Source: Alteraurantiacibacter aquimixticola (lineage in GTDB: Bacteria; Pseudomonadota; Alphaproteobacteria; Sphingomonadales; Sphingomonadaceae). Taken from it: a stretch of DNA of 64,000 bases. The translations under genes and the position numbers were made by a program. A model generated the notes under the pieces. That model was given only the letters and a program-made list of their open reading frames with translations. It was not told where the DNA came from and ran no database searches. This document shows, in pieces, positions 5,221 to 42,038 of the stretch. Location: positions 1 to 64,000 of the forward strand of contig NZ_SSHH01000004.1 of NCBI RefSeq assembly GCF_004965515.1, in the 5' to 3' direction. How positions within the stretch are numbered: the first letter of the stretch is position 1; the number at the start of each line of letters is the position of its first letter.

Positions 5221-5231
5221 GAGGCCCGCGC

Positions 5232-6730: not shown

Positions 6731-6821
6731 TTACCCCTCCGCAGGCGAAACCGCATATCGGGATATGGTAGCGCGCGGTCGGTTTGGAGCAAGTTAAACC
6801 GGACGGTGCCGGGATGGCGCC

Positions 6822-26765: not shown

Positions 26766-26993
26766 TCAGTTTCGTCGGGTCAGTTTGATAATAATATGCC
26801 ACATCGAGGCGCCCACCAAGATAAGCCATCCCAATAGAAAGAGACTGCCGCCCAGGAGTCCGACTCCAGATGTTTCGCTTGCGAGCATCAGAGGCAAAGA
26901 CAATGCCAATAGCGCAAGGCCAACGAACACGCCTTTGGGAGGTCGGCAGACCAGCCGCTGACCTCCCTCATGCCTGACCCGAAAGGGGATCAA
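26766..26993 (-). CDS. Small two-segment membrane protein, hypothetical
   Basis: A 75-residue frame with two hydrophobic stretches (VFVGLALLALSLPLMLA and LGGSLFLLGWLILVGASMW) and a basic C-terminus IIIKLTRRN, a plausible small inner-membrane protein. The only start is TTG at 26993, overlapping the stop of the dienelactone-hydrolase-like gene by 3 bp. I recognise no family; it may be a chance frame. Confidence 0.45.
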   Translation of the reverse strand: MIPFRVRHEGGQRLVCRPPKGVFVGLALLALSLPLMLASETSGVGLLGGSLFLLGWLILVGASMWHIIIKLTRRN

Positions 26994-27874
26994 AGCTTGT
27001 CGGCGTAAAGCGCCAGCAGGTTTGCCCAGGCGCGTTCCGCCTCGGCCTCATTGTAAACGGGGCTGTCGAGCACGGTCCAGCCGTGGTCCCCGGCATAGAC
27101 TTCCACGGTGACATCGGCAGCAGCAGCCTCGCCTGCTTCGGAAAGCGCGGTCTTGTCGCCGGGTGCATTGGCATCGTCATTCTGCGCGATGGCGATCAGC
27201 GCGCCGGCATCCTCGGCCATGTCGCCCAGCAGGTTGACGGGCGCGGTAGCATCGTCACCCACAAGTCCGCCGCCATGGAAGCTGGCAGCGGCCTTCACCC
27301 GATCCGGCACGGCGGCGGCGGCGCGGATGGTCCAGCTGCCGGTCATGCAATAGCCCTGGTTGCCGATGCCGCGCGAGGCATCGACGGCATCCTGGCTGTC
27401 GAGCCATGCGACCACGGCCTGCGTGGTCTCCGCAATCGCCTCAGGCGTATTGGCCTGCATCCACGGGCCGACGGTTTCGAAACCGGCCTCGCGGAAGGCC
27501 TCGAAATCGGCGAACTGCTCGCCCGAAACGCTACGATAATAGGGATTGGCGACGAGCACGGCATAGCCTTCGCCCGCCAGCCGCCTGCCCATCTCCAGCT
27601 TGGCGGGACGCAGCCCGGCAATGTCCGGCCACAGGATCACCGCAGGCGAGGCGACGCCCGCCGGGTGGATGAACACGCCATCGAACGTGCCGCCCGGAGC
27701 TTCGAAGCTGACGGCGTTTTCGACGATCGTACCTTCCTCCGGTTCGGCCTCTTCGGCATTGCCGTCGCTCGTAGTGCAGGCGGCCATGGCCCCTGCCCCC
27801 ATCACCGCACCCATGCGGGCAAATTGCCGCCGGTTCACACGCGGCATGCTGCTGACGAGATCCTGGTCACACAT
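26990..27874 (-). CDS. Exported dienelactone-hydrolase-family protein (Tat signal)
   Basis: A 294-residue alpha/beta hydrolase. The N-terminus carries a twin-arginine signal (VNRRQFARMGAV...AACTTSD) that may also be a lipoprotein signal. The DLH core shows FIHPAGVASPAVILWPDIAGL, the nucleophile elbow GNQGYCMTGSW with Cys, and the His in VYAGDHGWTVLD. Known DLHs open lactones in aromatic pathways in the cytoplasm; an exported version suggests another substrate. The start at 27874 follows from the signal peptide. Confidence 0.88.
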   Translation of the reverse strand: MCDQDLVSSMPRVNRRQFARMGAVMGAGAMAACTTSDGNAEEAEPEEGTIVENAVSFEAPGGTFDGVFIHPAGVASPAVILWPDIAGLRPAKLEMGRRLAGEGYAVLVANPYYRSVSGEQFADFEAFREAGFETVGPWMQANTPEAIAETTQAVVAWLDSQDAVDASRGIGNQGYCMTGSWTIRAAAAVPDRVKAAASFHGGGLVGDDATAPVNLLGDMAEDAGALIAIAQNDDANAPGDKTALSEAGEAAAADVTVEVYAGDHGWTVLDSPVYNEAEAERAWANLLALYADKL

Positions 27875-27949
27875 AATCGGCCTCCACTGCCCTCTCGAAT
27901 TCCGGTGGGAGGATAGCAGGGGTGGGAGCGGGGTCCATCCTTTGATTTT

Positions 27950-28176
27950 CGAAGGCGCATCCGCGCCTTCGTCCTCGCTAGACGGGCAGCAAGCTGCCCC
28001 CGCTGCGGGCGGCCGTTCGGCCTTGCGGTCGCTTAAGCGCCCGTGCTCCGCGACTGACCCGGCTAGCGCTGGAAACGGGCCGCAGGTCCGCAAGCGCGAA
28101 CGCGCGCCCGGACAGGCCCCGAAGCGTAGCGGAGGGATTAGCCGGGAGGACGAAGGCGCGGATGGGCCTTCGCAAA
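27950..28176. repeat. Dispersed palindromic repeat, family C (copy 2, extended)
   Basis: Occupies most of the 307-bp gap between the DLH-like and SDR genes. It starts with the same hairpin CGAAGGCGCATCCGCGCCTTCG, shares CGCTGCGGGCGGCCGTTCGG with copy 1, and ends with a mirrored GACGAAGGCGCGGATGGGCC arm. No gene is seen in the gap. Confidence 0.72.
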
Positions 28177-28181
28177 ACAAG

Positions 28182-29123
28182 CTAGGTCAAATCATCCAGG
28201 TCGATCACCAGACCCGCTTCGGCATCGCGCATGGCCTTGCGGCGCAGTTCCTCGATCTTCATGCGGCCCGGCGGGCAGGCCTCAACCGGCAGGGCCGCAA
28301 CCTGCTTCATATATTCCTCGGCGAAGTCGAGGCCGTGTTCCGGATGGGTCAGGATCAGCCCGTCCTGCTGCGTCATGCCGCGCAGGATCTTGGCGCCGAC
28401 TTCATAGGGATCCATCCCTTCCTCGAAAGCCGTGCCAAACTGTTCGAGCGCGCCTTCGGGCACGTCGGGAAAGCCGCTTTCATCAAAGCTGTCGGGCCGC
28501 TTCTGCGCGCTCTTCCACGCATTGGTGCGAGTGAGCGCGGGGCAGCACAGCGAGCAGCCGATGCCATGCGGGGCAAGGTTGTAGCGCAGGCTATCGGTCA
28601 GCCCGCGCACGGCAAACTTGCTGGCGGTATAAATGCCCGCCTGCGGACCGGGGAGGAAGGCGGCCATGGAAGAGACGTTGACCACATGGCGGCGCCCCTC
28701 GCTCGCCTTGATCTTGGGCAGGAAGGAGACGATCCCGTTGACCACCCCGCCGAAATTGACGCCCATGATCCAGTCGAAATCGTCATAGCTCGCCTCGTCG
28801 GTCGGGCCAAAGACGGAGACGCCGGCATTGTTCACCAGCACGTGGACTTCGCCGAAGTGATTCACCACCTGTTGGGCGGCCTTCGCGAAGCCATCGCGGT
28901 CGGTGACATCGAGCTTGATGAAGAGCGGCTTCTCATGCCCCTTGTCGGCAAACCACGCCTCGGTCGCGGCGCGATCGTCCTCGTTGCGATAGCTCAGCGC
29001 CAGGCGCATGCCCGCATCGGCAAAGGCCTGCGCCACGCCCAGGCCGATGCCCGTTGCGGCCCCCGTCACAAAGGCCACACGGCCTTCCCACTGGTCGCGA
29101 TATTCCGCCGGATTCAGGCTCAT
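28182..29123 (-). CDS. SDR-family oxidoreductase
   Basis: A 313-residue short-chain dehydrogenase. It has TGAATGIG in the cofactor loop, NNAGVSVFG, and catalytic VNVSSMAAF and YTASKFA. The C-terminal extension of about 60 residues (HPEHGLDFAEEYMKQ) is longer than usual and resembles SDRs found in aromatic and dimer-lignin clusters. ATG 29123 was chosen because a purine-rich ribosome site (GGGAGGAGAAAAA) precedes it. It is divergent from the NTF2-like gene, with an operator-like palindrome between them. Confidence 0.9.
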   Translation of the reverse strand: MSLNPAEYRDQWEGRVAFVTGAATGIGLGVAQAFADAGMRLALSYRNEDDRAATEAWFADKGHEKPLFIKLDVTDRDGFAKAAQQVVNHFGEVHVLVNNAGVSVFGPTDEASYDDFDWIMGVNFGGVVNGIVSFLPKIKASEGRRHVVNVSSMAAFLPGPQAGIYTASKFAVRGLTDSLRYNLAPHGIGCSLCCPALTRTNAWKSAQKRPDSFDESGFPDVPEGALEQFGTAFEEGMDPYEVGAKILRGMTQQDGLILTHPEHGLDFAEEYMKQVAALPVEACPPGRMKIEELRRKAMRDAEAGLVIDLDDLT

Positions 29124-29171
29124 TTTTTCTCCTCCCTCAAGCCCGCAAGGGGCTGGCATTGACTCTATCAT

Positions 29172-29193
29172 TCGTTACTAACGGACATAACGA
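29172..29193. promoter_or_regulatory. Operator-like site, TCGTTA/TAACGA motif (site 1)
   Basis: TCGTTA, C, TAACG, a 4-bp spacer and TAACGA occur in sequence, forming the palindrome CGTTACTAACG (29173-29183) plus another half-site. It lies between the divergent SDR and NTF2-like genes. The same half-site occurs at 31620-31645 and 42063-42074. Confidence 0.55.
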
Positions 29194-29212
29194 TTTGAGG
29201 GAGAGAGTCGAT

Positions 29213-29908
29213 ATGAGTGACACCGAAAACCGCCTTGCCGAGCTGGAACAGCGTGTCGGCATCCTGGAGGACATGGCGGCGATCAGGCGCCTGCACTGGG
29301 CCTATGGCTATTACATCGATTTCAACCGCCCGAACGAGGTGGCGGACCTGTTCGCGGAAGATGGCGCGGTGGTGTTCCTCAGCGGTGAGTATGTCGGCCA
29401 TGCGGGCGTGAAGCGGCTTTATGGCGACTGGATCGCCGGGCGCTTTACCGGCGGCAAGCCCGGTCCGGTCAACGGGTTGCTGCTCGACCATTTCCAGATG
29501 CAGGACATCATCACCGTCGCGCCCGATCGCAAGACCGCAAAGGGCCGCTTCCACGGCATCCTGCTGGGTGGCTGGCACGATGATTTCCAGGACACGCGCG
29601 AAGAAATGATGCCGCAGCAGTTCATGGAGGCCGGCATTTACGAGAATGACTATGTGAATGTCGACGGCGTGTGGAAGATCCAGCGGCTCGACTACATGAT
29701 GCAGTGGCAGGGCGATTACGAGAAGGGCTGGGCGCACACCACCGCGCATCTGCAGCCCGCCGAAAAGCTCTATCCCGAAGACCCGCTCGGCCCTGACCGG
29801 ATTCTGACCGAAGAGCATCACCGCCAGACCTGGCCCTATCGCCAGGACGTGCCGATGCATTTCGCGCATCCGAAATTCGGCATCGCCTTCGCCAACGAGG
29901 CGAAGTGA
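29213..29908 (+). CDS. NTF2/SnoaL-fold protein, possible gamma-formaldehyde lyase (LdpA/PcfL-like)
   Basis: A 231-residue NTF2-like protein with an N-terminal coiled segment ENRLAELEQRVGILEDM, then IRRLHWAYGYYIDFNRPNEVADLFAEDG and a Trp/His-rich C-terminus (LTEEHHRQTWPYRQDVPMHFAHPKFG). Length and layout recall the sphingomonad enzymes LdpA and PcfL, NTF2-fold lyases that remove formaldehyde from lignin dimers to make stilbenes. That function is inference from fold, size and context. ATG 29213 has GAGGGAGAGAG upstream. It is the first gene of a run with SnoaL-like and LigW-like genes. Confidence 0.75.
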   Translation: MSDTENRLAELEQRVGILEDMAAIRRLHWAYGYYIDFNRPNEVADLFAEDGAVVFLSGEYVGHAGVKRLYGDWIAGRFTGGKPGPVNGLLLDHFQMQDIITVAPDRKTAKGRFHGILLGGWHDDFQDTREEMMPQQFMEAGIYENDYVNVDGVWKIQRLDYMMQWQGDYEKGWAHTTAHLQPAEKLYPEDPLGPDRILTEEHHRQTWPYRQDVPMHFAHPKFGIAFANEAK

Positions 29909-29919
29909 GGCGCGCCGCC

Positions 29920-30363
29920 ATGGCGGACCGCAGCACATTGGGTTTCGACCCGGTCGATACATCGAACCGTTCCGCCCTCTCCAACCGGGAGGTCGCGGAG
30001 CGGTTCATCCACCTCTTCTATGAAGAGGACAATCCGGAGGAGGCCTTCACCTGCTGGGTCCATCCGGATTACATCCAGCACAACCCGAACGCGCCGACGG
30101 GCCGCGACAATACGCTGGCGATGATGCGCACTTCGATGGCAAAGTACCCGGACCTCACCCATGATGTGAAACGCATCATCTGGGGTGAGCCGGATTGTTC
30201 GATGGTGGCCGTCCATTTCCACTTCAAACGCACGAAGGAGGAGCGCGGCTATGCTATCGTGGACTTGCTGCGTTTTGCCGACGGCTATCTTGTCGAACAC
30301 TGGGACGTGATGCAGGAAATACCCGAGCCGGGGACGACGAAGAACGATAACGGAATGTTCTGA
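29920..30363 (+). CDS. SnoaL-like protein
   Basis: A 147-residue SnoaL-like/NTF2 domain protein, with NREVAERFIHLFYEEDNPEEAFTCWVHPDYIQHNP followed by FADGYLVEHWDVMQEIPEP, the latter typical of polyketide-cyclase-like SnoaL proteins. An in-frame GTG at 29905 overlaps the preceding stop; ATG 29920 gives the better family N-terminus. Its position between the NTF2 lyase candidate and the LigW-like gene points to a shared pathway. Confidence 0.85.
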   Translation: MADRSTLGFDPVDTSNRSALSNREVAERFIHLFYEEDNPEEAFTCWVHPDYIQHNPNAPTGRDNTLAMMRTSMAKYPDLTHDVKRIIWGEPDCSMVAVHFHFKRTKEERGYAIVDLLRFADGYLVEHWDVMQEIPEPGTTKNDNGMF

Positions 30364-30393
30364 CGGGCTCGAACAGGCAGAGGGGGAGAGCTG

Positions 30394-31533
30394 ATGCCGA
30401 AACTGGAAGATGGCAGCGAGAAGGGCCTGAAGGGCCATTTCAAGGAAGATTTCAGCCACCGCACGCGGGAGGGGCTGGCCCCGCGCTCCGGGCATGTCGA
30501 TCGTGACGTGCCCTACAAAAGGATCGCGACGGAGGAGGCATGGACCTTCCCCGACCTCGTGAAGGCGCAGGTCGACTATTTCGAAAGCGGCGCGGCGCCA
30601 GACGATGACTCGCTCAAGATGGCAGGCATGTTCGCCAAGATGCCGAGCCTGCAGGAGATGCTGCAGGACCTTGGCGAGCTACGCATCTCGCACATGGACG
30701 AGCTGGGGATCGACCGCCAGCTGCTGCTCCTCACCGCGCCCGGCGTGCAGGTGGTGTGCCCCGGTGACGGGACACCCCTGTCGATCATGGCGAACGATAT
30801 CGCCGCCGAGGCTTGCGCCAGGCACCCGGACCGCTTTTCCGCCTGCGCCGCCTTCGATCCGCGCGACGTGGCGGGATCGGTGAAGGAGCTGGAGCGCGCT
30901 GCCGGCCTCGGCCTCAACGGCGCGGTGCTCAATTCGCACTGGCAGGGGCATTATCTGGACGAGCCCGAATTCTGGCCGATCCTGGAGGCGCTGGAGGCGA
31001 ACGACCTCGCGCTCTATATCCACCCGACCGCACCCTATAACGCGCCGCATTACGAGAAGCGCGGCTTCTTCGGCGCGCTGGGCGGTTTCCCGCATGATGT
31101 CTGGCTGCACACAATGGGCCTGATCATGTCGGGCGCCTTCGACCGCTTCCCCAAGCTGCGCCTCGTCATCGGGCATATGGGCGAATGCATGCCGCTGCAT
31201 CTCTATCGCTTCGACTGGATGCAAGGGAATGCCGATGGCCGCCCGCGCCCCGGGCTGTTCGGCGATATGGAAACGCCCAAGCTGGCGCATCCGGTCAGCC
31301 ATTATTTCAAGCACAATATCTGGATCACCACCAGCGGCGTAGGCTGGGAACCCGCGATCAAGTTCTGCCAGGACGTGCTGGGGCCGGACCGGGTGATCTA
31401 CGCGATGGACTATCCCTACCAGCAGAGCAGCGACGAGGTCGCCGCCTATGACCGGATGGATATGAGCGCCGAGCACAAGAAGATGCTGATGGAAGACAAT
31501 GCCCGCCACGTCTTCCGGATCACCGGCCCATAA
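30394..31533 (+). CDS. Amidohydrolase-family decarboxylase, LigW-like
   Basis: A 379-residue metal-dependent decarboxylase of the ACMSD/LigW branch. The amidohydrolase HxH is replaced by the ExA form in RIATEEAWTF (45-52), as in 5-carboxyvanillate decarboxylase. Other metal-site segments are LYIHPTAPY, LVIGHMGECMPLHLYRFDW and VIYAMDYPYQQSSDEV. IWITTSGVGWEPAIKFCQDVLG also matches LigW. Its likely reaction is non-oxidative decarboxylation of an ortho-hydroxybenzoate-type acid; 5-carboxyvanillate is the leading candidate. There is an N-terminal extension of about 40 residues. GGGGGAGAG precedes the ATG. Confidence 0.82.
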   Translation: MPKLEDGSEKGLKGHFKEDFSHRTREGLAPRSGHVDRDVPYKRIATEEAWTFPDLVKAQVDYFESGAAPDDDSLKMAGMFAKMPSLQEMLQDLGELRISHMDELGIDRQLLLLTAPGVQVVCPGDGTPLSIMANDIAAEACARHPDRFSACAAFDPRDVAGSVKELERAAGLGLNGAVLNSHWQGHYLDEPEFWPILEALEANDLALYIHPTAPYNAPHYEKRGFFGALGGFPHDVWLHTMGLIMSGAFDRFPKLRLVIGHMGECMPLHLYRFDWMQGNADGRPRPGLFGDMETPKLAHPVSHYFKHNIWITTSGVGWEPAIKFCQDVLGPDRVIYAMDYPYQQSSDEVAAYDRMDMSAEHKKMLMEDNARHVFRITGP

Positions 31534-31566
31534 CCCTTCATCGACGGCCTGTCGCGGTCGGTCGAG

Positions 31567-31586
31567 AATTGTCGCAAATTGTCGCA
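31567..31586 (+). promoter_or_regulatory. Tandem 10-bp direct repeat upstream of TonB receptor
   Basis: AATTGTCGCA occurs twice head-to-tail with one-turn (10-bp) phasing, about 80 bp before the receptor start. It is a candidate activator site or promoter element. Confidence 0.4.
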
Positions 31587-31619
31587 AAAGCTGTTGCATC
31601 CGCCTTCCCGGGCGGCATA

Positions 31620-31645
31620 ATCGTTAGGCGTCATAACGATAACGA
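31620..31645. promoter_or_regulatory. Operator-like site, TCGTTA/TAACGA motif (site 2)
   Basis: ATCGTTA-N7-TAACGAT is a perfect inverted repeat (31620-31640), followed directly by another TAACGA overlapping at 31640-31645. It lies about 25 bp upstream of the TonB receptor start. Confidence 0.6.
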
Positions 31646-31667
31646 TTGTGACGATAGGGGAGGATTT

Positions 31668-34193
31668 ATGAGAGCTTTTTCGAAGGCGCCCTTGCGCCAT
31701 GTGCTGGCCGCGTCAGCGTCGACACTGGCCTTGCTGGCCACGCCGGCCTTGGCGCAGGAAGATGCCGAACAGCAGGACGAACGCATCGGTAACACCACCA
31801 TCGTGGTGACCGCGCAGTTCCGCGAGCAGGCGCTGCAGGACACGCCGCTGGCCATCACCGCGGTGACCGGCGAGATGATCGAGGCGCGCAGCCAGAACGA
31901 CCTCGCCACAGTGGCAGACAGCGCGCCCAACGTCTCGATCCGCCCGCAAGGCTCCTCCTTCGGCCCCTCGGTCTCAGCCTCGATCCGCGGCATCGGCCAG
32001 ACCGACTTCAACCCCGCCTATGAGCCGGGCGTCGGCATCTATATCGATGACGTCTACTACCCGCAGCTGACCGGCGCGATCTTCGACACGCTCGACCTGG
32101 AGCGGGTGGAAATCCTGCGCGGTCCGCAAGGCACGCTTTCGGGCCGCAACTCGCTGGGCGGCGCGATCAAGATGTATTCGCGCATGCCGAACGGCGATTC
32201 CAGCGGCTATGTCGAGGCGGGCTATGGCTCGCGCGATCGCATCTCGCTGCGCGCCGCGGCCGATTTCGCGATCACCGACACGCTGTTCATGCGCGTCTCC
32301 GGCGTCTCCAAGAACCAGGATGGCTATGTCGACCAGATCGACTTCGGCTGCCGCTTCCCCGCTGGCGGTGGCGACACTTTCGTCGACAATGATGGCGTGA
32401 CGCAGGAAGTGAACCCGGCACCGGGCGTGGCCGCCCGCGTCAACACGTCCGATTGTGTGGTCGATAAGCTTGGCGGCGTCGGCTACCAGGCCCTGCGCGG
32501 CATTTTGCGGTTCGAGCCGAATGCCGATTTCGATTTCACCATCATCGCCGATTATACCAATGACGACCGCACGGTAGCGGGCGAAGTGATCGACGCCACC
32601 GCCATCGTCACCAACCCGAACATCCAGCCCGCGCCGGGCATCCTTTATGACGACCGCTTCATCTGCGGCCCCTTCTGCTCCTACCAGACGGACGGCAACG
32701 AAGCGGGCGTGTTCCAGGCGCTCGTCCCCGGCGATCCCTTCGGCGCGGACGGCACGCCGCTGGCGGCAACGCCTGGCAACAACCGCAGCAAATATTCGAG
32801 CTGGGGCGTCTCGGGCCAGATGAACTGGAACCTGAATGACTGGCTGCAACTGCAGTCGATCACCGGCTACCGCGAGTTCGATACCTACTTCTTCGCCGAT
32901 GGCGACCTCTCGCCCGCCTTCATCGGTTATGGCGAGAACGATCTCACCAACTGGAGCGTCAGCCAGGAAGTGCGCCTGAACGCGGAGCTGACCGAGAACA
33001 TCTTCGCCACCGTCGGCGGCTATTACTTCGAGCAGTTCTCGATCTACGATTCGGCGCAGGACCTGCGCTATGTCCCGGTCTATCCGCTGCAGTTCCGCCA
33101 GCCTGACGAGATTGCCGCCGATGCCTGGGCCGCCTTTGCCAACGTCGCGTGGGAGATTGTTCCCGACCTCAACATCAATGCCGGCATCCGCTATACTGAA
33201 GAAACCAAGCAGCAGACCTATTTCCGCTACAATTTCGACGGGACGGTCAACGCCTTCCTCGATCCGGTGGGCGCGGCCTGCGGCGAGGGTTTCGACGGTG
33301 TCGATACGAATGACTGCGATAATGACGGCAACACCACCGAAGTGCTGCGCGCGCTTTCCGGCAACACCGCCAATTACGAAGGCGACAAGATCGACTGGCG
33401 CGTGGCGGTGGACTATCGCTTCAGCGACCAGGTGCTGGCCTATGCCTCGGTGGCGACGGGCTTCAAGGGCGGCGGCTCCAACCCGCGTCCGTTCAACGCC
33501 TTCCAGCTCGTGCCCTTCGGGCCGGAAGAACTGGTGGCCTATGAAGTCGGCCTGAAGACCGACCTGCTCGACCGCCGCCTGCGCGCGAACCTGTCAGCCT
33601 TCCTCAACAAGTTCACCGACATCCAGACCGGCGTGAACATCTGCCCCACCGGCGTGCCGGGCACAGAAACGCCCAGCGCCTGCCGCGTGAATGCTGGCGA
33701 TGCCGATATTCGCGGCTTCGAGCTGGAGCTGCAGGCAGAACCGGTGGACGGGCTGATGCTGGACGCATCGCTCAGCTATATCGACCTCAAGTACAAGACG
33801 GTCAGTCCGCTGAGCCAGACGCAGATCGACGATCCGGGCACCGCGCCGCCGTGGAAGGCGAGCTTCGGTGCGCAATATCGCATCGACCTCGACAGCGCCG
33901 GCACGCTGACCCCGCGTTTCGACGTGTTCTACCAGGATGACCAGTTCACCGGCCCGCTGACTTTGGGCGGCGTGCGCATGCTGAACTTCCTGCCCAGCTT
34001 CACCACGGTGAATGCGCGGCTGACCTGGCGCAACGAAGCGGACGATCTGGCGGTCTCGCTCGAGGTGACCAACCTCACCGACGAGTATTACCTCTTGTCT
34101 TCCTTCGACCTGCGCGGTGCCGGCACCGGCTACCGCAAGGTCCTGCCCGCCCGCCCGCGCGAATGGGCGCTGACGGTTCGCAAGGACTTCTAA
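31668..34193 (+). CDS. TonB-dependent outer-membrane receptor
   Basis: An 841-residue receptor with signal peptide MRAFSKAPLRHVLAASAS...TPALAQ and TonB-box-like NTTIVVTAQ at about 45-53. The plug motifs are SIRGIGQTDFNPAYEPGVGIYIDDVYYPQ and VEILRGPQGTLSGRNSLGG, and the barrel ends WALTVRKDF. ATG 31668 follows GGGGAGGA. It lies 134 bp after the LigW-like gene on the same strand with its own operator-like site. Uptake of a dimeric or acidic aromatic, as for DdvT in SYK-6, is plausible but unproven. Confidence 0.94.
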   Translation: MRAFSKAPLRHVLAASASTLALLATPALAQEDAEQQDERIGNTTIVVTAQFREQALQDTPLAITAVTGEMIEARSQNDLATVADSAPNVSIRPQGSSFGPSVSASIRGIGQTDFNPAYEPGVGIYIDDVYYPQLTGAIFDTLDLERVEILRGPQGTLSGRNSLGGAIKMYSRMPNGDSSGYVEAGYGSRDRISLRAAADFAITDTLFMRVSGVSKNQDGYVDQIDFGCRFPAGGGDTFVDNDGVTQEVNPAPGVAARVNTSDCVVDKLGGVGYQALRGILRFEPNADFDFTIIADYTNDDRTVAGEVIDATAIVTNPNIQPAPGILYDDRFICGPFCSYQTDGNEAGVFQALVPGDPFGADGTPLAATPGNNRSKYSSWGVSGQMNWNLNDWLQLQSITGYREFDTYFFADGDLSPAFIGYGENDLTNWSVSQEVRLNAELTENIFATVGGYYFEQFSIYDSAQDLRYVPVYPLQFRQPDEIAADAWAAFANVAWEIVPDLNINAGIRYTEETKQQTYFRYNFDGTVNAFLDPVGAACGEGFDGVDTNDCDNDGNTTEVLRALSGNTANYEGDKIDWRVAVDYRFSDQVLAYASVATGFKGGGSNPRPFNAFQLVPFGPEELVAYEVGLKTDLLDRRLRANLSAFLNKFTDIQTGVNICPTGVPGTETPSACRVNAGDADIRGFELELQAEPVDGLMLDASLSYIDLKYKTVSPLSQTQIDDPGTAPPWKASFGAQYRIDLDSAGTLTPRFDVFYQDDQFTGPLTLGGVRMLNFLPSFTTVNARLTWRNEADDLAVSLEVTNLTDEYYLLSSFDLRGAGTGYRKVLPARPREWALTVRKDF

Positions 34194-34218
34194 GGAGGAG
34201 GTCAGACCTGAGAACGAG

Positions 34219-34252
34219 AAGGGGGCGGGCCGCACAGGCTCGCCCCCTTTTT
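34219..34252 (+). terminator. Rho-independent terminator of the TonB receptor gene
   Basis: GGGGGCGGGCC pairs with GGCTCGCCCCC (one G-T pair) around a 5-nt loop, followed by TTTTT. The A-rich 5' flank is short, so it may work in both directions for the convergent genes. Confidence 0.88.
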
Positions 34253-34298
34253 CGTGGTCTGCATTATTGCGGTGCCAGGTGACGCCTGTCTCGAGAAC

Positions 34299-35573
34299 CT
34301 ATTCCACGCCGGCGAGGAATTCGGTCATCGCCGCCATCATCTTGTCGAAGGCAGGCTCGCCCGCCAGCGGCACGTGATTTCCCGTCGGCAGCGTTTCGAA
34401 CTGCGCATCGCCAAGGCTGGCGGCCAAGTCGCGCCCGACGCTTAGCGCCGCGCGCCGGTCGCCGCGTGAATGCAGGATCAGTGCCGGGGCCTGCACCTCA
34501 TCCAGCCTGTCACGCACGTCGATATCGCCGAAGCAGTGGATGAAGCGCGCGGCATTGGCGGCGCTGGTGGTCTGCTTCTGGAACTCGTTGAAGCGGTCGA
34601 TGTCCTCGGAGGAGGCATCGGGCAGGAAGGAATGCGAGAAGATCTGGCGATAGGCGGGTGAATTGTCGCCCCACCCTTCTTCCACCAGCGTGATCTCCGC
34701 TTCGCGGCGGCGCCTGTCGGCCTCACCGGAGAAGCTCCGCCAACCGACCGGATAGGCGCCGACCAGGATGAGTGCGGAGACTCGTTCCGGATGGCGCGCG
34801 GCATATTCGATCGACACTGCCCCGCCCTGGCTGATGCCGAGCAGCGGGAAGCGCTCCAGCCCCAGCGCATCGGCCACGCATTCAAGGTCGCTGACGAAGG
34901 AATCGAAGGACAGGTCCTCCACCTCCCAGTCGGACAAGCCGTTGCCGCGCTCGTCATAGCGATAGAGCCGGTGGCTATGCGCCAGCCGCGTATAAAGGCC
35001 GGACCAGACGGGCACGTCCATATCCGCCTCCAGATGGGTCAGCCAATTGGCCGCCTTGAGCAGCGGCGGGCCCTTGCCCATGGCGGAATAGGCGATGCTC
35101 GTCCCGTCGGGCGTCTTTGTATAGCGGATCTCCTGCCGCAGCTGTTCGGCTGGATCGCCGCGGTCCTGCGCGGCATCCGGCGATGCTCCGCGCCCCTCGC
35201 GCAGCGCGGCGACGAAAGCGGCATATTCGTCATGCTCGCCCGAAAGCGTCGCACCGAGCAGGCGGTCCCCGGCGCTTTCGTCGAAGTCGATGCAGTCCGC
35301 GGGAACTTGCATCTTCACGCTCAGCCGGTCGGCAATCAGCCAGTCCTCGTCATCGCCCAGCGCGCGGCGCAATTTGGCCAGCGCCCAGCGCAGCCCGCCG
35401 CGCGGATCGGCCGCACGGTCCCAGAACATGTCGCACAGATGCTCGCGCGTGGCGGACCTCTCGCGCAGCAGCAGGAAGGCGAGCAGCGCACGGGTCTTGC
35501 GGGAAGGCGGCAGATCCACCGTCTCCCCGTCACGCAGGACCTCCACGTCCTCACCAATGGAAAACCGGGTCAT
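34299..35573 (-). CDS. Alpha/beta hydrolase fused to N-terminal BTAD/SARP-type DNA-binding domain
   Basis: A 424-residue fusion. Residues about 1-95 form an OmpR/SARP-like winged helix (VEVLRDGETVDLPPSRKTRALLAFLLL, HLCDMFWD, LRWALAKLRRALGDDEDWL). Residues about 150-420 are an alpha/beta hydrolase with RYDERGNGLSDW, the nucleophile elbow GISQGGAVS (Ser near 248), LILHSRGDRRAALS and the final His in GNHVPLAGE. It may be a regulator with a hydrolase fold as ligand sensor, or an active enzyme. AGGAGG lies very close to ATG 35573, so the start is slightly uncertain. It is divergent from a methyltransferase gene. Confidence 0.88.
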   Translation of the reverse strand: MTRFSIGEDVEVLRDGETVDLPPSRKTRALLAFLLLRERSATREHLCDMFWDRAADPRGGLRWALAKLRRALGDDEDWLIADRLSVKMQVPADCIDFDESAGDRLLGATLSGEHDEYAAFVAALREGRGASPDAAQDRGDPAEQLRQEIRYTKTPDGTSIAYSAMGKGPPLLKAANWLTHLEADMDVPVWSGLYTRLAHSHRLYRYDERGNGLSDWEVEDLSFDSFVSDLECVADALGLERFPLLGISQGGAVSIEYAARHPERVSALILVGAYPVGWRSFSGEADRRRREAEITLVEEGWGDNSPAYRQIFSHSFLPDASSEDIDRFNEFQKQTTSAANAARFIHCFGDIDVRDRLDEVQAPALILHSRGDRRAALSVGRDLAASLGDAQFETLPTGNHVPLAGEPAFDKMMAAMTEFLAGVE

Positions 35574-35610
35574 CCCTCCTGATCCGTCATCCCCAAGCCA
35601 ATTGCGTGCA

Positions 35611-35640
35611 AATACCACGCTCGGCCTGCGAATACCACGC
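35611..35640. promoter_or_regulatory. Direct repeats in the divergent hydrolase-regulator/methyltransferase gap
   Basis: AATACCACGC occurs at 35611-35620 and again at 35631-35640, two helical turns apart, with a partial third copy (ACCACGC) at 35647-35653. Direct repeats are the usual targets of SARP/OmpR-like winged helices, so this is a likely binding site of the fused regulator. Confidence 0.6.
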
Positions 35641-35732
35641 AAGGAAACCACGCTGGCTACCACCATGCGGGCCGAGCGGGCGGCATCCCCAAAAACCGAA
35701 CTGAACCGAATAGACGAACAAGGAGAGTATCT

Positions 35733-36800
35733 ATGTGCCTGACCCATACACTTGAAGCAGCCAGCCAGAACGAGGGCATGCCGCCTTTCGCGCAGGAGCT
35801 GTTGCAGACCATCAATCACGGGGCCACGGCGATGGCGATTTCCATCGGCCACCGCCTGGGCATTTTCGACACCATGCGCGAAAAGAGCCCCGCCACCGCG
35901 GCGCAATGGTCCGCGCGCACCGGCCTCAACGAGCGTTACATAGCCGAATGGCTGGGCGCGATGGCGACCGCCGGGATCGTGACCATGGATGCGGAGGGCC
36001 GCTACGTGCTGCCCAACGATCATGCCGATTTCCTCGGTGCCGAGGCGCCTGCCGGCAGCATGTCGAGCATGATGCAGTGGATCGGCGTGCTGGCGCCGGT
36101 CGAAGACGAAATCGTCAAGTGCTTTCGCGAAGGCGGCGGCGTGCCCTATTCCGCCTATCCGCGCTTCCATGAAGTCATGGCCGAGGAGAGTGCCGGCACT
36201 TTCGACCAGGACGCCACGATCGCACTGGTGCCGGGCCTCGACGAGCAGCTGGAAGAGGGCATTTCGGTGTGTGACGTCGGCTGCGGGCGCGGACGGTCGA
36301 TCATCCAGCTGGCGCAGGCCTATCCGCGCAGCCACTTCACCGGCTACGACCTCTCGACCGAGGCGATTGCGGACGCACGGCGCTTTGCAGCAGGCCTGCC
36401 CAATGTCGAGTTCACCGTGCTCGATTGCATGGAGATGACCGATCGCGGCCGCTTCGACCTCGTGCTCACTTTCGATGCCATCCACGACCAGCCGCACCCG
36501 GACAAGCTGTTGTCCAATATCGCGCGCTCGCTGGCGCCGGGCGGCGTCTATATCGCGCAGGATATCTGGGCACACACCAAGGTCGAGGACAATGTCGGCC
36601 ACCCGATGGGGCCGTTCATCTATACGGTCAGCCTGATGCACTGCATGACGGTGAGCCTGGCGCAGGGCGGTGTCGGCCTCGGCGCGGCCTGGGGCGAGGA
36701 GCAGGCGATCTCGCTGCTGCAGCAGGCCGGCTTCGGCTCGATCGCGATGCGCCGGCTCGAGCACGATCCGCTTAACGCTTACTACATCTGCCGCAGCTAG
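35733..36800 (+). CDS. SAM-dependent class I methyltransferase with winged-helix N-terminus
   Basis: A 355-residue methyltransferase. An N-terminal winged-helix-like part (AMAISIGHRLGIFDTM, SARTGLNERYIAEWLGAMATAGIV) resembles O-methyltransferase dimerisation domains. The Rossmann-like domain has motif I ISVCDVGCGRGRSIIQLAQ (about 178-196) and FTGYDLSTEAI, then LTFDAIHDQPHPDKLL and LAPGGVYIAQDI. The substrate is unknown. The strong ribosome site AGGAGAG precedes the ATG. It is probably controlled by the divergent BTAD-hydrolase protein. Confidence 0.88.
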   Translation: MCLTHTLEAASQNEGMPPFAQELLQTINHGATAMAISIGHRLGIFDTMREKSPATAAQWSARTGLNERYIAEWLGAMATAGIVTMDAEGRYVLPNDHADFLGAEAPAGSMSSMMQWIGVLAPVEDEIVKCFREGGGVPYSAYPRFHEVMAEESAGTFDQDATIALVPGLDEQLEEGISVCDVGCGRGRSIIQLAQAYPRSHFTGYDLSTEAIADARRFAAGLPNVEFTVLDCMEMTDRGRFDLVLTFDAIHDQPHPDKLLSNIARSLAPGGVYIAQDIWAHTKVEDNVGHPMGPFIYTVSLMHCMTVSLAQGGVGLGAAWGEEQAISLLQQAGFGSIAMRRLEHDPLNAYYICRS

Positions 36801-36851
36801 CCCCCGGCGGGCAGATTCCTCCCGCGAGGATGCGACCCCCAAACGGGAGGG

Positions 36852-36886
36852 AAGGGGGCAGCCGGCACGCGCCGGCTGCCCCCTTT
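36852..36886. terminator. Bidirectional rho-independent terminator
   Basis: A long stem GGGGGCAGCCGGC/GCCGGCTGCCCCC with a 4-nt loop (ACGC) is flanked by AA on the left and TTT on the right. It lies between the convergent methyltransferase and PilZ genes. Confidence 0.85.
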
Positions 36887-36893
36887 ACGCATG

Positions 36894-37178
36894 TCAGGCT
36901 GCTTGCGCTGCCAGCCGTTCGATGGCGGCGGGGTGGAGCTGGCCGAAAAAGCGGATAGCCGCACGGCGGCCCTTGTGCTGCAGCACGCGGCCATTGATCT
37001 CGATGCTGTCGGCGATTTTCAGCTGCAGGAAATCGGCGTCGCACTCCCAATCGCAATCGGCCTCCGCGCTGCAACCCTCGGCTGTGAGGTCGCGCAAGGC
37101 GACGGGGACGCGGCGGCCCTCCATTTCGCACATTCCGCCAATGGGCGGGGTGGTCTTTTCCATCTTGCCACGAGCCAT
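36894..37178 (-). CDS. PilZ-domain protein
   Basis: A 94-residue protein consisting of one PilZ domain. EGRRVPVALRDLTAEGCSAEA corresponds to RxxxR/D.S..G of the cyclic di-GMP-binding motif, although the first Arg is shifted and the D/NxSxxG is degenerate (DLTAEG). VRFIG-like IRFFGQLHPAAIERL ends the fold. It may sense c-di-GMP or have lost binding. It is a monocistronic gene on the minus strand. Confidence 0.8.
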   Translation of the reverse strand: MARGKMEKTTPPIGGMCEMEGRRVPVALRDLTAEGCSAEADCDWECDADFLQLKIADSIEINGRVLQHKGRRAAIRFFGQLHPAAIERLAAQAA

Positions 37179-37269
37179 CTCGGCCTCCGCAACTGCCTGA
37201 TGAAGTAAAGGCTAGCCAGTCGAGGGTTAATTTCGGGTTGTCGCCCTGTTCATCGCCCGTTTCGCTTTG

Positions 37270-38430
37270 TCATGCGGCGGCGGCGCGGCGCATTGCCATC
37301 GCCCATGTCCCGCGCGTAGCCGCGCGCCAGAGCCATTCGAGCGGGCCGTAGCGGAAGTGGCGGAACCACAATGCGGCAAGCGCCATCTGGACGGCGAAGA
37401 ACACCATGCCCCACGCCAGCGCCTCGGCATGAGAGATACGATTCCACAGGCCCAGCCCATATCCGTAGAAGACCGGAACCGCGATCAGCGACTGGCCGAT
37501 ATAGAGCGTCAGCGTCATCCGCCCCGCCGGCGCGAGCCATTCGAGAATAGGGCGCAAAGCCGTCTGCCACAGCAATACGAAAGCGGCGACCTGGAAGGCG
37601 GTGGCGGGGAGCGCGGTCCATTGACCCACCTGCCATTCGCGAACTTGTGCCTGTTCGGGCGCTCCGGCGATATTCTCCAGAACGGAAGGCAGCAGCCATG
37701 TGGTCGCCGCCCAGATCGCCGCGGAGGCCAGCAGGATACCGAACCAGAAGCGCAGCCGCTCCCCGGCATCGGCAAACCAGCCGCGCCTTTTCGCCACCAT
37801 GCCGACAAGGAACAGGCCGACGATTTCGGTCACGCGCCCGGCCTCGAGATAGAAGGACCACTTGCCGACCGAGCCCGGGCCGAGATTGTCGGCGGCAACC
37901 TGCCAGGGCGTTCCCTCCGCCAGCGTGGGCAGGCTACCCCAGCTGAAATAGAGCGGGTCCGCCACCGCCCAGCCATGCCCTTGCCCCGCTGCCCACAGGC
38001 GCAGCAATTGCGGCAGTTGGAGGAAGGCGAGCGCCGCCACGATCAGCAGCGTGCGATCTGAACGGACGCGGTCGAACGGGACCAGCAGCAGGCCGACCAG
38101 CGCCAGTACCTGCAAGATGTCACCGCGATAGAACAGCACGTGAAAGGTGCCGAAAGCGAACAGCAGCACCAGCCGCCATGCGAAGCGCCAGGTGTAATCG
38201 CCGCCCCGCACGCGCTCATTGTCCATGATCGTGGCGAAGCTGAAACCGAACAGCAGCGCGAAGATCGCGAAGGCCTTGCTGCCGAACAGGGCAAAGGTGC
38301 CATCGAACCAGGCATCGGGCTGCGGATCGAGCCAGGCGAGCTCGAACCGCTCCACGCAATGGACCAGGAACAATCCCAGCAGCGCGAAGCCGCGCAAGGC
38401 ATCGACCATCTCTATCCGGCGTTGCGGCAT
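37270..38430 (-). CDS. DUF418-domain integral membrane protein (YeiB-like)
   Basis: A 386-residue protein with about ten hydrophobic segments. It starts MPQRRIEMVDALRGFALLGL, the acyltransferase-3-like DUF1624/DUF418 signature, with VHCVERFEL after it. The C-terminal DUF418 part is GRMTLTLYIGQSLIAVPVFY and FRYGPLEWLWRAAT. YeiB-type proteins are membrane proteins of unclear function, perhaps transporting or modifying small molecules. The start at 38430 fits the family. Confidence 0.9.
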   Translation of the reverse strand: MPQRRIEMVDALRGFALLGLFLVHCVERFELAWLDPQPDAWFDGTFALFGSKAFAIFALLFGFSFATIMDNERVRGGDYTWRFAWRLVLLFAFGTFHVLFYRGDILQVLALVGLLLVPFDRVRSDRTLLIVAALAFLQLPQLLRLWAAGQGHGWAVADPLYFSWGSLPTLAEGTPWQVAADNLGPGSVGKWSFYLEAGRVTEIVGLFLVGMVAKRRGWFADAGERLRFWFGILLASAAIWAATTWLLPSVLENIAGAPEQAQVREWQVGQWTALPATAFQVAAFVLLWQTALRPILEWLAPAGRMTLTLYIGQSLIAVPVFYGYGLGLWNRISHAEALAWGMVFFAVQMALAALWFRHFRYGPLEWLWRAATRGTWAMAMRRAAAA

Positions 38431-38483
38431 CGTCCCTCTCCCGGCTTTTCTGGTAGCGCTACCATGGCCGGGCGGAGGAGGCC

Positions 38484-38523
38484 ACGAAAAAGGGGCGGCA
38501 CCTCGCGGCACCGCCCCCTCTTT
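38484..38523 (-). terminator. Rho-independent terminator of the MetE-like gene
   Basis: On the minus strand, GGGGCGG pairs with CCGCCCC around an internal loop and is followed by TTTTT. It lies 20 bp after the MetE-like stop codon. Confidence 0.8.
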
Positions 38524-38542
38524 CATTTGCGGGAGGAAAGGA

Positions 38543-39673
38543 TCAGGCGTCGACCGACACCTTGCCCCACACTTCCTCGGCCACTTCCACGCAGAGGCGG
38601 ATCTTGTCCGCCTGCTGTTCGGTGGTGATGTCATTGCCATGCACCGTGCTGGCAAAGCCGCATTGCGGGCTGAGCGCCAGCTGGTCGAGATCGGCATATT
38701 TGCATGCCTCGTCGATGCGGCGCTTGATATCGTCCTTGGTCTCCAGATCGCCCAGCTTGGTGGTGACGAGGCCGAGCACCACGGTCTTGCCCTTGGGCAG
38801 GAACCGCAAAGGCGCGAAATCGCCCGAGCGGGGATCGTCATATTCAAGGAAGAAGGCGTCGATATCGAGCTCGTTGAACATGATCTCCGCCACCGGCTCA
38901 TAGCCGCCTTCCGCCGCCCAGCTGGAGCGGAAGTTGCCGCGGCACAGGTGGATTGCGCGGATCATGTCGGCAGGCGCGGATGCGAAGCTGTCATTGATGA
39001 GCTTGGCATATTGCCGCGTCGTCGCATCGGGATCGAGGCCGCGCTTGGCGGCATCTGCGCGCTGCTCGTCATCGCACAGATAGGCGAGGTTGGTGTCGTC
39101 CATCTGGATGTAACGGCAGCCCGCATCGACCAGGCTGTCCACCTCGGCGCGATAAGCGGCGGCGACATCGGCATAGAACTCGTCCATCTCGGGATAGACG
39201 TCCTCGGGAATACCCGAACGGCCGGCGCGGAAATGCAGCATGGTGGGCGAAGGGATCGCCACCTTGGGCATGCAGTCGGCGGAAACCTTGGAAGCGAGAT
39301 ACTGGTAATCGGCCAGCTGGATCGGCTTCTGGTGCGCGATCTTGCCGGTCACCACCATCACCGGCGGGGCGAAGGACACATCCTTGCCGGCATCGTTCTT
39401 GAAGGCTTTCTTCAGCCCCCCGCGCTCTTCCACGCCCGCCAGCTGCAGCAGGAAATCGGTATGGAAGAAATAGCGGCGGAATTCGCCATCGGTGATGGCC
39501 TTGAGGCCGAGGTCCTGCTGCCAGGAAACGAGCTCGGCAATCGCCGCGTCCTCGATGGCGCGCAGGTCCGCATAGGAGATGTTGTCGGCGGCGCGATGCT
39601 GGCGCGCCTCGATCACCTCACGCGGGCGGAGGAACGAGCCGACATGGTCGGCGCGCGAAGGCAGTTTGGTCAT
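38543..39673 (-). CDS. Short cobalamin-independent methionine synthase-family protein (MetE C-terminal type)
   Basis: A 376-residue TIM-barrel methyltransferase corresponding only to the catalytic half of MetE (about 750 residues). Zn ligands appear to be His and Cys in IRAIHLCRGNFRSSW, Glu in FFLEYDDPRSGDF and Cys in LALSPQCGFAS. The homocysteine region is DGEFRRYFFH, and YIQMDDTNLAYL is also conserved. It may accept methyl groups from 5-methyl-tetrahydrofolate or another donor. Next to a LigM-type demethylase this would be a methyl sink; that is inference. A palindromic site lies just upstream of the start at 39673. Confidence 0.87.
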   Translation of the reverse strand: MTKLPSRADHVGSFLRPREVIEARQHRAADNISYADLRAIEDAAIAELVSWQQDLGLKAITDGEFRRYFFHTDFLLQLAGVEERGGLKKAFKNDAGKDVSFAPPVMVVTGKIAHQKPIQLADYQYLASKVSADCMPKVAIPSPTMLHFRAGRSGIPEDVYPEMDEFYADVAAAYRAEVDSLVDAGCRYIQMDDTNLAYLCDDEQRADAAKRGLDPDATTRQYAKLINDSFASAPADMIRAIHLCRGNFRSSWAAEGGYEPVAEIMFNELDIDAFFLEYDDPRSGDFAPLRFLPKGKTVVLGLVTTKLGDLETKDDIKRRIDEACKYADLDQLALSPQCGFASTVHGNDITTEQQADKIRLCVEVAEEVWGKVSVDA

Positions 39674-39692
39674 TGTAGTTTTGTCCTGTCTA

Positions 39693-39707
39693 AACAAAGT
39701 GTTTGTT
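39693..39707. promoter_or_regulatory. Palindromic operator candidate upstream of the MetE-like gene
   Basis: AACAAA-GTG-TTTGTT is a perfect 6-bp inverted repeat with a 3-bp spacer, 20 bp before the MetE-like start codon. A TetR-like repressor site is plausible. Confidence 0.5.
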
Positions 39708-39850
39708 AGACCAGGGTCATGACGCGGGCTCGCGCTCGACTGGACAGGCCGCGCATACTCCAGATCCTCCCCGGCGCGCAAGACGCTATGTGCAGCTGCG
39801 AAGGCGGCGGGCACGGACGAAAATGGGTCTTGATCGCGCCACCCGGCTTA

Positions 39851-39865
39851 GTATGCACCGCATAC
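39851..39865. promoter_or_regulatory. GTATG-N5-CATAC operator-like site (site 1)
   Basis: The perfect 5-bp inverted repeat GTATG-CACCG-CATAC is followed by AAA and lies 47 bp before the alcohol dehydrogenase start. The same arms and spacer length occur in the ligM promoter region at 51258-51278. Confidence 0.55.
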
Positions 39866-39911
39866 AAATGGCGCGCGTCTTTCGGGTAGCGGCGCCAAGG
39901 GGAGAGAGAAG

Positions 39912-42038
39912 ATGACCATCCGCAACTGGTTTGCAGCCGCTTCCATGGCGCTGGCCCTGGCGGCCTGCGGCGACAATGCGATCGAAGGCGGGATCGACAA
40001 TGCCCGCCTCGTGAACGCAGCGCAGGATCCGGCCAACTGGATCAGCTATGGCCGCGACTATGCGGAACAGCGCTTCAGCCCGCTCGACCAGATCAATGCG
40101 GAGAATGTGGGTGAGCTGGGCCTCGCCTGGTTTGCGGACATGGACACGTCGCGCGGGCAGGAAGCCACACCGCTGGTGATGGATGGCCGCCTCTACACCA
40201 CCACCGCATGGTCCAAGGTGAAAGCCTATGACGCGAAGACCGGCGCGGTGCTGTGGGAATACGATCCCGAGGTTCCGGGCGAGACCGGCGTCAAGGCCTG
40301 CTGCGACGTCGTCAATCGCGGCCTCGCCGCGTGGGGCGACCGGCTGTTCCTCGGCACGCTGGATGGCCGCCTGATCGCGCTCGATCGTGAGACGGGCGAG
40401 GAAATCTGGTCCGAAGTCACCGTCGACCAGTCCAAGGCCTACACCATCACCGGCGCGCCGCGCGTGATCGATGGCAAGGTGCTGATCGGCAATGGCGGCG
40501 CCGAATATGGCGTGCGCGGCTATGTTAGTGCCTATGATGCCGAGGATGGCGACATGCTGTGGCGCTTCTACACCGTCCCCGGCGCTCCGGATGAGGCGGA
40601 TGAGGAAAGCGAGGCCATGGCCGCGGCGCGCGAGACCTGGAACGGCGAGTTCTGGGAACTGGGCGGCGGCGGCACCGTGTGGGACGCGATGGCCTATGAC
40701 CCCGATCTCGACCTGCTCTATATCGGCGTCGGCAACGGTAGCCCGTGGAACCAGTCCTATCGCAGCCCCGGCGGCGGCGACAATCTCTACCTCTCCAGCA
40801 TCGTCGCGCTGCGGCCCGAGACGGGCGACTATGTCTGGCACTACCAGACCACGCCGGGCGAGACCTGGGACTTCACCGCCACGCAGCACATCATGCTGGC
40901 CGACATGGAGATCGACGGGCGCACGCGGCAGGTGCTGATGCAGGCACCGAAGAACGGCTTCTTCTACGTCATCGACCGCGCGACGGGTGAGCTGATCAGC
41001 GCGAATAACTACGTGCCGATGAACTGGGCGACGGGCGTCGACATGGAAACCGGCCGCCCGATCGAAGTGCCCGCGGCACGCTATGGCGAGACCGGAATCC
41101 CCTTCGTCTCCACCCCCGGCGCGGGCGGTGCGCATAACTGGCACCCGATGGCGTTCCATCCGGGCGAGGGGCTGGTCTATATCCCCGCAATCGAGGCGGG
41201 CTTCCCCTATGTGCCCGAAGCCGATTGGGAGCCGGACACGGCGCGCGGCTTCAATGTCGGCGTGGACATGGCGGCAGGCGCGCTGCCCGCGGACGAAGCG
41301 ATCCGCGAAGCATCGGTCGCCGGGACGAAAGGCGCGCTGATCGCCTGGGACCCGGTCACGCAGACCGAGCGCTGGCGGGTGCAATATCCCGGCCCGTGGA
41401 ATGGCGGCGTCCTCGCTACCGGTGGCGGACTGGTGTTCCAGGGCACGGCGGGCGGCCAGTTCAAGGCCTTTGCCGCCGGTGACGGCAGCGAGCTATGGTC
41501 CTTCCCGGCGCAGACCGGCGTGGTCGCCCCGGCGGTGACCTATACCGTCGATGGCGAGCAATATGTCGCGGTCATGGCCGGCTGGGGCGGCATCTGGGCG
41601 CTGGCACCCGGCGGCATCCTCAACGAGACGTCCGGCCCCGTGCCCAATATCTCGCGCCTGCTGGTGTTCAAGCTGGGAGCGAGCGGCGAATTGCCGCCAG
41701 CCCCGCCGCTGCAACGCCGCCCGATCGATCCGCCCCCCTTCCGCGGCAGCGAGGAGCAGCTGGCCAGCGGCAACTATGCCTATGGCCGCTATTGCGGGCA
41801 GTGCCATGGCGATGCCGCGATCGGCTCCACCGTGCTGCCCGATCTGCGCCGCAGCGCAGTGCTCGACAATGGCGATACCTGGATGCAGATCGTCCATGAC
41901 GGCGCGCTCGGTTTCAACGGCATGGCCGGTTTCTCGGACTCGCTGTCGGCTGACGAAGTGGAGGCGATCCGTCAGTATGTGATCTTCCGCGCCAACCAGG
42001 ACAAGGAGCTGGGAGGCCTCGGCCTGCAGGGCTCCTGA
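39912..42038 (+). CDS. PQQ-dependent quinohemoprotein alcohol dehydrogenase
   Basis: A 708-residue periplasmic dehydrogenase. A signal with lipobox LAAC (about 16-19) is followed by the eight-bladed PQQ propeller with WISYGRDYAEQRFSPLDQI, the vicinal Cys pair GVKACCDVVNRG, the catalytic region GETWDFTATQH, and W-motifs. A C-terminal cytochrome c domain carries CGQCH at about residues 624-628, so electrons pass to haem c. It would oxidise primary alcohols to aldehydes; with the following aldehyde dehydrogenase this makes alcohol to acid. PQQ synthesis genes are not in the window. The start ATG follows GGGGAGAGAGAAG. Confidence 0.93.
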   Translation: MTIRNWFAAASMALALAACGDNAIEGGIDNARLVNAAQDPANWISYGRDYAEQRFSPLDQINAENVGELGLAWFADMDTSRGQEATPLVMDGRLYTTTAWSKVKAYDAKTGAVLWEYDPEVPGETGVKACCDVVNRGLAAWGDRLFLGTLDGRLIALDRETGEEIWSEVTVDQSKAYTITGAPRVIDGKVLIGNGGAEYGVRGYVSAYDAEDGDMLWRFYTVPGAPDEADEESEAMAAARETWNGEFWELGGGGTVWDAMAYDPDLDLLYIGVGNGSPWNQSYRSPGGGDNLYLSSIVALRPETGDYVWHYQTTPGETWDFTATQHIMLADMEIDGRTRQVLMQAPKNGFFYVIDRATGELISANNYVPMNWATGVDMETGRPIEVPAARYGETGIPFVSTPGAGGAHNWHPMAFHPGEGLVYIPAIEAGFPYVPEADWEPDTARGFNVGVDMAAGALPADEAIREASVAGTKGALIAWDPVTQTERWRVQYPGPWNGGVLATGGGLVFQGTAGGQFKAFAAGDGSELWSFPAQTGVVAPAVTYTVDGEQYVAVMAGWGGIWALAPGGILNETSGPVPNISRLLVFKLGASGELPPAPPLQRRPIDPPPFRGSEEQLASGNYAYGRYCGQCHGDAAIGSTVLPDLRRSAVLDNGDTWMQIVHDGALGFNGMAGFSDSLSADEVEAIRQYVIFRANQDKELGGLGLQGS

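Follow-up and report, generated by a model that had tools for sequence, protein, structure and literature searches.

The divergent genes and the repeats between them

We analysed a stretch of 64,000 nucleotides from Alteraurantiacibacter aquimixticola (contig NZ_SSHH01000004.1, positions 1 to 64,000; hereafter the window). It carries a gene for a fusion of a SARP-type winged helix with an alpha/beta hydrolase and a methyltransferase gene, which are arranged head-to-head with a 159-bp gap between them. The following features were located, with coordinates counted from the first letter of the window:

34299..35573, minus strand: SARP-type winged helix/alpha-beta hydrolase fusion, 424 aa (ATG at 35573, coding 34302-35573 plus stop)
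35283..35573, minus strand: winged-helix DNA-binding part, aa 1-97 (AfsR structure matches and alignment)
35136..35282, minus strand: linker, aa 98-146 (BTAD position in longer relatives; pLDDT <50 across residues 92-141)
34302..35135, minus strand: alpha/beta hydrolase domain, aa 147-424 (Pfam Abhydrolase_1, 1.6e-19)
34830..34832, minus strand: codon of Ser248, the nucleophile in GISQG
34458..34460, minus strand: codon of the catalytic Asp372
34374..34376, minus strand: codon of the catalytic His400
35612..35620, plus strand: candidate operator unit 1, ATACCACGC
35632..35640, plus strand: candidate operator unit 2, ATACCACGC, 20 bp after unit 1
35645..35653, plus strand: candidate operator unit 3, looser, AAACCACGC, 13 bp after unit 2
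35720..35727, plus strand: Shine-Dalgarno-like AAGGAGAG ahead of the methyltransferase ATG (read from the sequence)
35733..36800, plus strand: class I SAM-dependent methyltransferase with an Rv2258c-like winged domain, 355 aa (Pfam and structure match)

An 847-aa open reading frame was rejected as the regulator, being merely a mechanical upstream extension of the 424-aa fusion. The N-terminus of the fusion stayed below the cutoff of Pfam Trans_reg_C (15.7 bits; cutoff 26.2), and the NCBIfam model AfsR matched residues 3-99 at 2e-5, far under its whole-protein cutoff. Structures of AfsR (8hvr, 8k60, 8jke) matched residues 3-72 with E values from 2.3e-4 to 7.3e-4, and an OmpR/AfsR-like N-terminal winged helix, as in the SARP family, is thus present. 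The AlphaFold model of the fusion has a mean pLDDT of 75, with the winged helix mostly at 62-76. Behind the winged helix of the window fusion, Pfam matched no BTAD. The spacing between winged helix and hydrolase is ~49 residues in this copy compared to ~150 in the longest relatives (~515-535 aa). Among related N-termini a BTAD was matched in 7 of 23 at E<=0.1, and only one of ten proteins (L072) reached the Pfam BTAD cutoff (22.2 bits; cutoff 22.1). A profile of the N-termini of the relatives led to EmbR (2fez) over both wHTH and BTAD (E 4.7e-4); several designed TPR proteins outranked EmbR in that search, where the match covers the BTAD part. Because the linker has ~49 residues and the BTAD is without a match in the window copy, the term "SARP/BTAD-like" given to this domain in the preliminary description holds for the winged helix but mostly not for the BTAD. 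Judged by its sequence, the protein would act like a SARP through its winged helix, yet without the BTAD it would not be a canonical one.

The hydrolase part, previously described as intact-looking, indeed has the GxSxG elbow and the Ser-Asp-His triad of the alpha/beta hydrolase superfamily: GISQG occupies residues 246-250, with Ser248 as the nucleophile originally named, and Asp372 and His400 complete the triad.

The methyltransferase combines a winged domain (HTH_65, 3.8e-23, 81.9 bits; cutoff 24.1) with a class I methyltransferase domain (Methyltransf_31, 2.9e-23, 82.6 bits; cutoff 27), as in Rv2258c. Its structure matches, both nearly full length, were 5f8c, which we take to be Rv2258c (E 9.3e-93), and 8g5s, TnmJ (7.8e-43). 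Relatives of the methyltransferase occur in six plasmid records, two of which were inspected; their neighbours were other regulators or none of the SARP-hydrolase kind and gave no clue to the substrate. Plasmid relatives of the regulator came from 114 records, none of which covered 80% of the protein, and the one inspected contributed nothing decisive. The surroundings in the window (26990-42038) look catabolic, with a dienelactone-hydrolase family protein, an SDR, an amidohydrolase, a MetE-like protein, a TonB-receptor-like protein (assigned by eye), and a PQQ alcohol dehydrogenase with a cytochrome domain.

The direct repeats that had been noticed between the two genes proved to be real and consist of two exact units and a looser third. 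The 10-mer AATACCACGC occurs at 35611 and 35631, and an exact 10-base direct repeat also arose in 14 of 1000 dinucleotide shuffles of the 159-bp gap. In a matrix-free test, none of 200 such shuffles equalled the three-unit array of the window. This test chose the unit at 35645, while the best triple of a matrix test joined the two strong units to a weak upstream one instead. A badly designed array test, with unlimited chain length and a noisy matrix, gave p=0.39 for the window. Genome-wide, the 10-mer has nine occurrences compared to three for the reversed control pattern. Taken with the shuffle results, this means that the lone 10-mer is not rare, but its tandem arrangement is. The pattern ACCACGCN{4,16}ACCACGC matched five places in the same genome (control: one). 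Four of these were rejected as further targets: two are the window array itself, and the other two, L126 and L127, fall within predicted genes. In the fifth place, L128, the predicted frame consists of masked bases.

Conservation of the array and its association with SARP-type fusions

Methyltransferase orthologues (at least 51% identity; n=10 including the window) were collected from 397 genomes of the family. Six of them face a SARP-hydrolase fusion (window, G364, G021, G390, G302, and G371), although in G371 (L125) the contig ends within the fusion and just the DNA-binding half is visible; L125 was therefore excluded from the 48-row alignment and the tree. An array of TTCCMACGC-like units with steps near 12 or 21 bp precedes all ten orthologues, including the four without an adjacent regulator. 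For a leave-one-out test with exactly three units, designed after the uninformative chain test, a matrix was built from the other nine promoters, with the units read by hand beforehand. Each of the ten promoters scored above 500 of 500 shuffles. With the matrix-free test, eight of the ten promoters reached p<=0.035, and the other two gave 0.055 (L123) and 0.47 (L120). Literal conservation of AATACCACGC can be rejected, since solely L118 of the other five pairs has ATACCACGC units and the rest use the TTCNAACGC type. Repeats are hence conserved beside homologous pairs, one of the checks on which the preliminary description had staked its proposal, as a looser unit with its spacing and not as a 10-mer. 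They resemble the direct-repeat operators near target promoters of the SARP family and are candidate operators by sequence.

In five relatives, a weak -10-like hexamer lies 8 nt past the last unit, which fits the expectation for a SARP promoter; it is at most suggestive and is not clearly present in the window. In G439, where no fusion was found, a methyltransferase relative (41% identity) has no array before it. As a control, we scored 326 intergenic strands that touch no called regulator, taking the first 260 bases per strand, so that some places are missed. Four scored at least 16: one is a methyltransferase promoter (L124) and the other three belong to loci of other SARP fusions (L063, L066, and L068).

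We then compared the upstream regions of 49 hydrolase-carrying regulators, excluding the methyltransferase pairs. An array was present upstream of 18 of the 28 other SARP-hydrolase fusions, but upstream of only one of 15 fusions with other output domains (Fisher 3e-4; 7e-4 with one of each close pair dropped, i.e., four close relatives). The SARP figure combines 18 of 25 at p<=0.05 (one at 0.050) with none of three added later, and that for CadC, AraC, or cyclase-type fusions one of 13 with none of two; fusions with an N-terminus of unknown type had none in five and none in one added later. The class labels in these counts come from Pfam for some proteins and from sequence reading for others, with the cyclase label given by eye, and six regulators (L052, L054, L055, L057, L060, and L069) were included after a check by motif instead of alignment. 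Relatives in G264 and G104 were left out of the fetched loci. The other ten of the 28 SARP fusions have no significant array directly upstream. For four of these (L063, L065, L066, and L068, with L066 being borderline), an array lies at another place in the locus that was fetched, and L062 has none anywhere in it. L068 (C3:538812) contains a second SARP-hydrolase fusion of the window's own genome, at positions 5986-7575 of the locus, and a TTCCAACGG-type array, another unit type, at ~5185-5230 ahead of a codirectional 384-aa gene. In L063 (~2136) and L066 (~10651), the arrays lie near glutamine synthetase-like genes (assigned by eye); the next genes code for a glutaminase-like protein and the SARP-hydrolase fusion.

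Fusion and orthologue also tend to occur in the same genomes. Among 298 genomes, a fusion was found in five of six with the orthologue compared to 27 of 292 others (p=6e-5, with genera that are not independent); without the window genome, the first figure is four of five (p=5e-4). When the other nine genomes with an orthologue were searched directly, eight yielded a fusion, which makes nine of ten with the window. The exception is G129 (L121), which is 99% complete and has the methyltransferase orthologue and a clear array, and in which no hydrolase fusion was found.

The hydrolase domain as a probable sensor

The complete catalytic triad is retained by 53 of the 54 relatives, as judged from 48 aligned sequences (Ser in 47, Asp in 47, His in 48) and six checked by motif. 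The exception, L075_4, has Ser replaced by Ala and Asp by Asn. It is encoded in tandem with an intact copy (CadC-type hydrolase fusions at L075 5659-6915 and 6929-8143), so that by their triads one dead copy stands beside a live one. Throughout the family, one hydrolase domain occurs with several outputs: SARP, CadC-type, and Cupin/AraC parts as well as cyclase-like ones, the latter recognized by eye at the N-termini of L046, L048, L049, L052, and L054. In a tree of the hydrolase domains, the methyltransferase-paired regulators cluster (95/88). Their cluster also includes L061, which lacks the array and lies opposite an OYE-type gene. Another clade (99/98) mixes CadC and SARP fusions, and every locus in it has a divergent AurF-like gene. 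Because the output domains are mixed in this clade while all members lie beside AurF-like genes, the DNA-binding part was changed with the hydrolase and the target being kept.

A divergent upstream neighbour is present at 37 of the 49 called regulators. Of ten neighbours compared to Pfam, six are likely small-molecule enzymes (an AurF-like diiron protein, barely at the cutoff, a P450, a fatty-acid hydroxylase, an OYE-type reductase, an acyl ligase, and an O-methyltransferase) and four are not clearly so (one alpha/beta hydrolase and one protein each of the OsmC, DUF1499, and PEP-CTERM types). L039, L040, and L044 received their P450 label by eye.

By Foldseek, the hydrolase of the fusion resembles KAI2, D14, DAD2, and RsbQ (E 5e-16 to 5e-15). 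Since esterases match equally well, the fold alone cannot demonstrate a receptor. The suggestion that the hydrolase senses a ligand nevertheless fits the conserved triad, the several output domains, and the domain exchange. Because the array goes with the SARP part, the triad is kept in nearly all relatives, and the DNA-binding domain was swapped beside a kept target, the hydrolase is most likely the sensing part of the methyltransferase regulator.

Altogether, we think it probable that SARP winged helices on the repeat array switch the methyltransferase gene, with the hydrolase serving as a small-molecule receptor. The 424-aa fusion would then be a one-component regulator, most likely an activator, whose SARP-type winged helices bind in tandem along the direct-repeat array at 35612-35653. 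Bound there, it would switch the divergent methyltransferase gene and perhaps its own. The hydrolase pocket may take up a small ester-, lactone-, or amide-like molecule, and binding of this ligand, possibly combined with slow turnover by Ser248-Asp372-His400, would set the DNA-binding or activating state. The methyltransferase would then modify the sensed compound or a related one.

The conserved triad could also point to an enzyme that destroys the signal. In that case the hydrolase would degrade either the inducer or what the methyltransferase makes (a methyl ester, for example) and would thereby provide negative feedback or a timer, binding itself being no switch. The complete triad is what a real enzyme would retain, and the nearest NCBIfam sequence models of the hydrolase part are true hydrolases such as the enol-lactonase PcaD, all far below their cutoffs. 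But direct fusion to DNA-binding or cyclase-like parts would be expected of a sensor rather than of such an enzyme, and the varied neighbours (diiron protein, P450, reductase, ligase) are not all ester makers. We therefore regard a signal-destroying enzyme as unlikely.

Trigger enzymes, of which PutA is the example for proline, offer another model. Here, the hydrolase would be a metabolic enzyme of the pathway and would signal the flux of substrate to the DNA-binding part, in keeping with the conserved triad and the catabolic-looking neighbours in the window. Among the relatives, however, the methyltransferase pair sits in differing surroundings, and therefore no common pathway gene is visible. 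Moreover, the regulator can be encoded elsewhere than the array-bearing promoter, which makes such a role quite improbable. Finally, it is very unlikely that the array serves another regulator and the fusion adjoins it by chance, as G129 with its array and the four orthologues without a fusion nearby might suggest, because arrays of this type also accompany SARP fusions that have different targets, whereas nearly all fusions with other outputs lack one, and because fusion and orthologue co-occur at the genome level.

For the sensor reading preferred here, a wider version can be proposed tentatively, with less confidence than for the window itself. The relatives may form a widespread bacterial family of hydrolase receptors, in which a sensor that binds and slowly cleaves its ligand, as plant receptors for strigolactone and karrikin do, is carried on swappable SARP, CadC, or AraC domains or on cyclases. 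Every member would switch an enzyme gene close by, in many cases with a single-span membrane microprotein co-transcribed ahead of it.

Relation to known regulators, and small peptides ahead of the target genes

An AfsR-related winged helix and a candidate direct-repeat operator link the window fusion to the SARP family (AfsR, EmbR, and small Streptomyces activators). Besides the mostly missing BTAD, it differs from this family in its distribution, with SARP-hydrolase fusions being met here mainly in alphaproteobacteria. EmbR, for comparison, carries an FHA domain. The window fusion ends in an alpha/beta hydrolase, unlike the SARP classes with NB-ARC, TPR, or LAL parts named in the excerpt of PMC10972967 used here. 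According to the same excerpt, SARP operators consist of direct-repeat heptamers with 4-15 nt spacers that overlap the -35 region (PMC10972967). The window-type unit sequence and the steps of 12 or 21 bp differ from the classical SARP step of 11 bp.

With plant D14, KAI2/HTL, and DAD2 and with bacterial RsbQ, the window hydrolase shares the fold and the intact triad; unlike them, the presumed receptor would carry a DNA-binding domain of its own. Hydrolase-cyclase fusions of the LipJ type (Rv1900c) have a related hydrolase part (NCBIfam LipJ, 68 bits; cutoff 800), but the output in the window would be DNA binding and not nucleotide cyclisation. Each of the elements, be it the SARP regulator, the direct-repeat operator, or the hydrolase receptor, is already known, and a SARP with a hydrolase receptor would be a variant of them. 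No paper evidently on a SARP-hydrolase fusion was among the matches listed from open-licence text, which is no proof of absence.

If the hydrolase is a receptor, the fusion would offer a one-protein bacterial model for how an enzyme fold turns into a hormone-like receptor. In strigolactone biology, this question is posed as "receptors, enzymes, or both" in the title of PMC3531792. The mapped candidate operator with its single target gene would make a ready reporter, and a simple biosensor design is suggested by the way in which DNA-binding domains have been exchanged in nature on a single sensor.

The AurF-like diiron genes (L070-L072, L074-L079, and L082-L085; thirteen proteins counted by BLASTP) face fusions with a SARP, CadC, or AraC domain. 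Predicted hydrophobic single-span peptides of 33-42 aa precede 11 of these 13 genes (L070, L071, L072, L074-L079, L082, and L084, with close relatives among the eleven) compared to 3 of 198 other genes (Fisher 4e-14). A similar peptide was predicted in the upstream gap of 4 of 42 regulators. At the methyltransferase loci, a predicted hydrophobic single-span peptide of 25-42 aa lies between array and methyltransferase in six of the ten promoters (L118, L064, L122, L123, L124, and L125), with none in 300 shuffles for each. It is absent from the window, L119, L120, and L121, the last of which has a frame-disrupted remnant as judged by eye.
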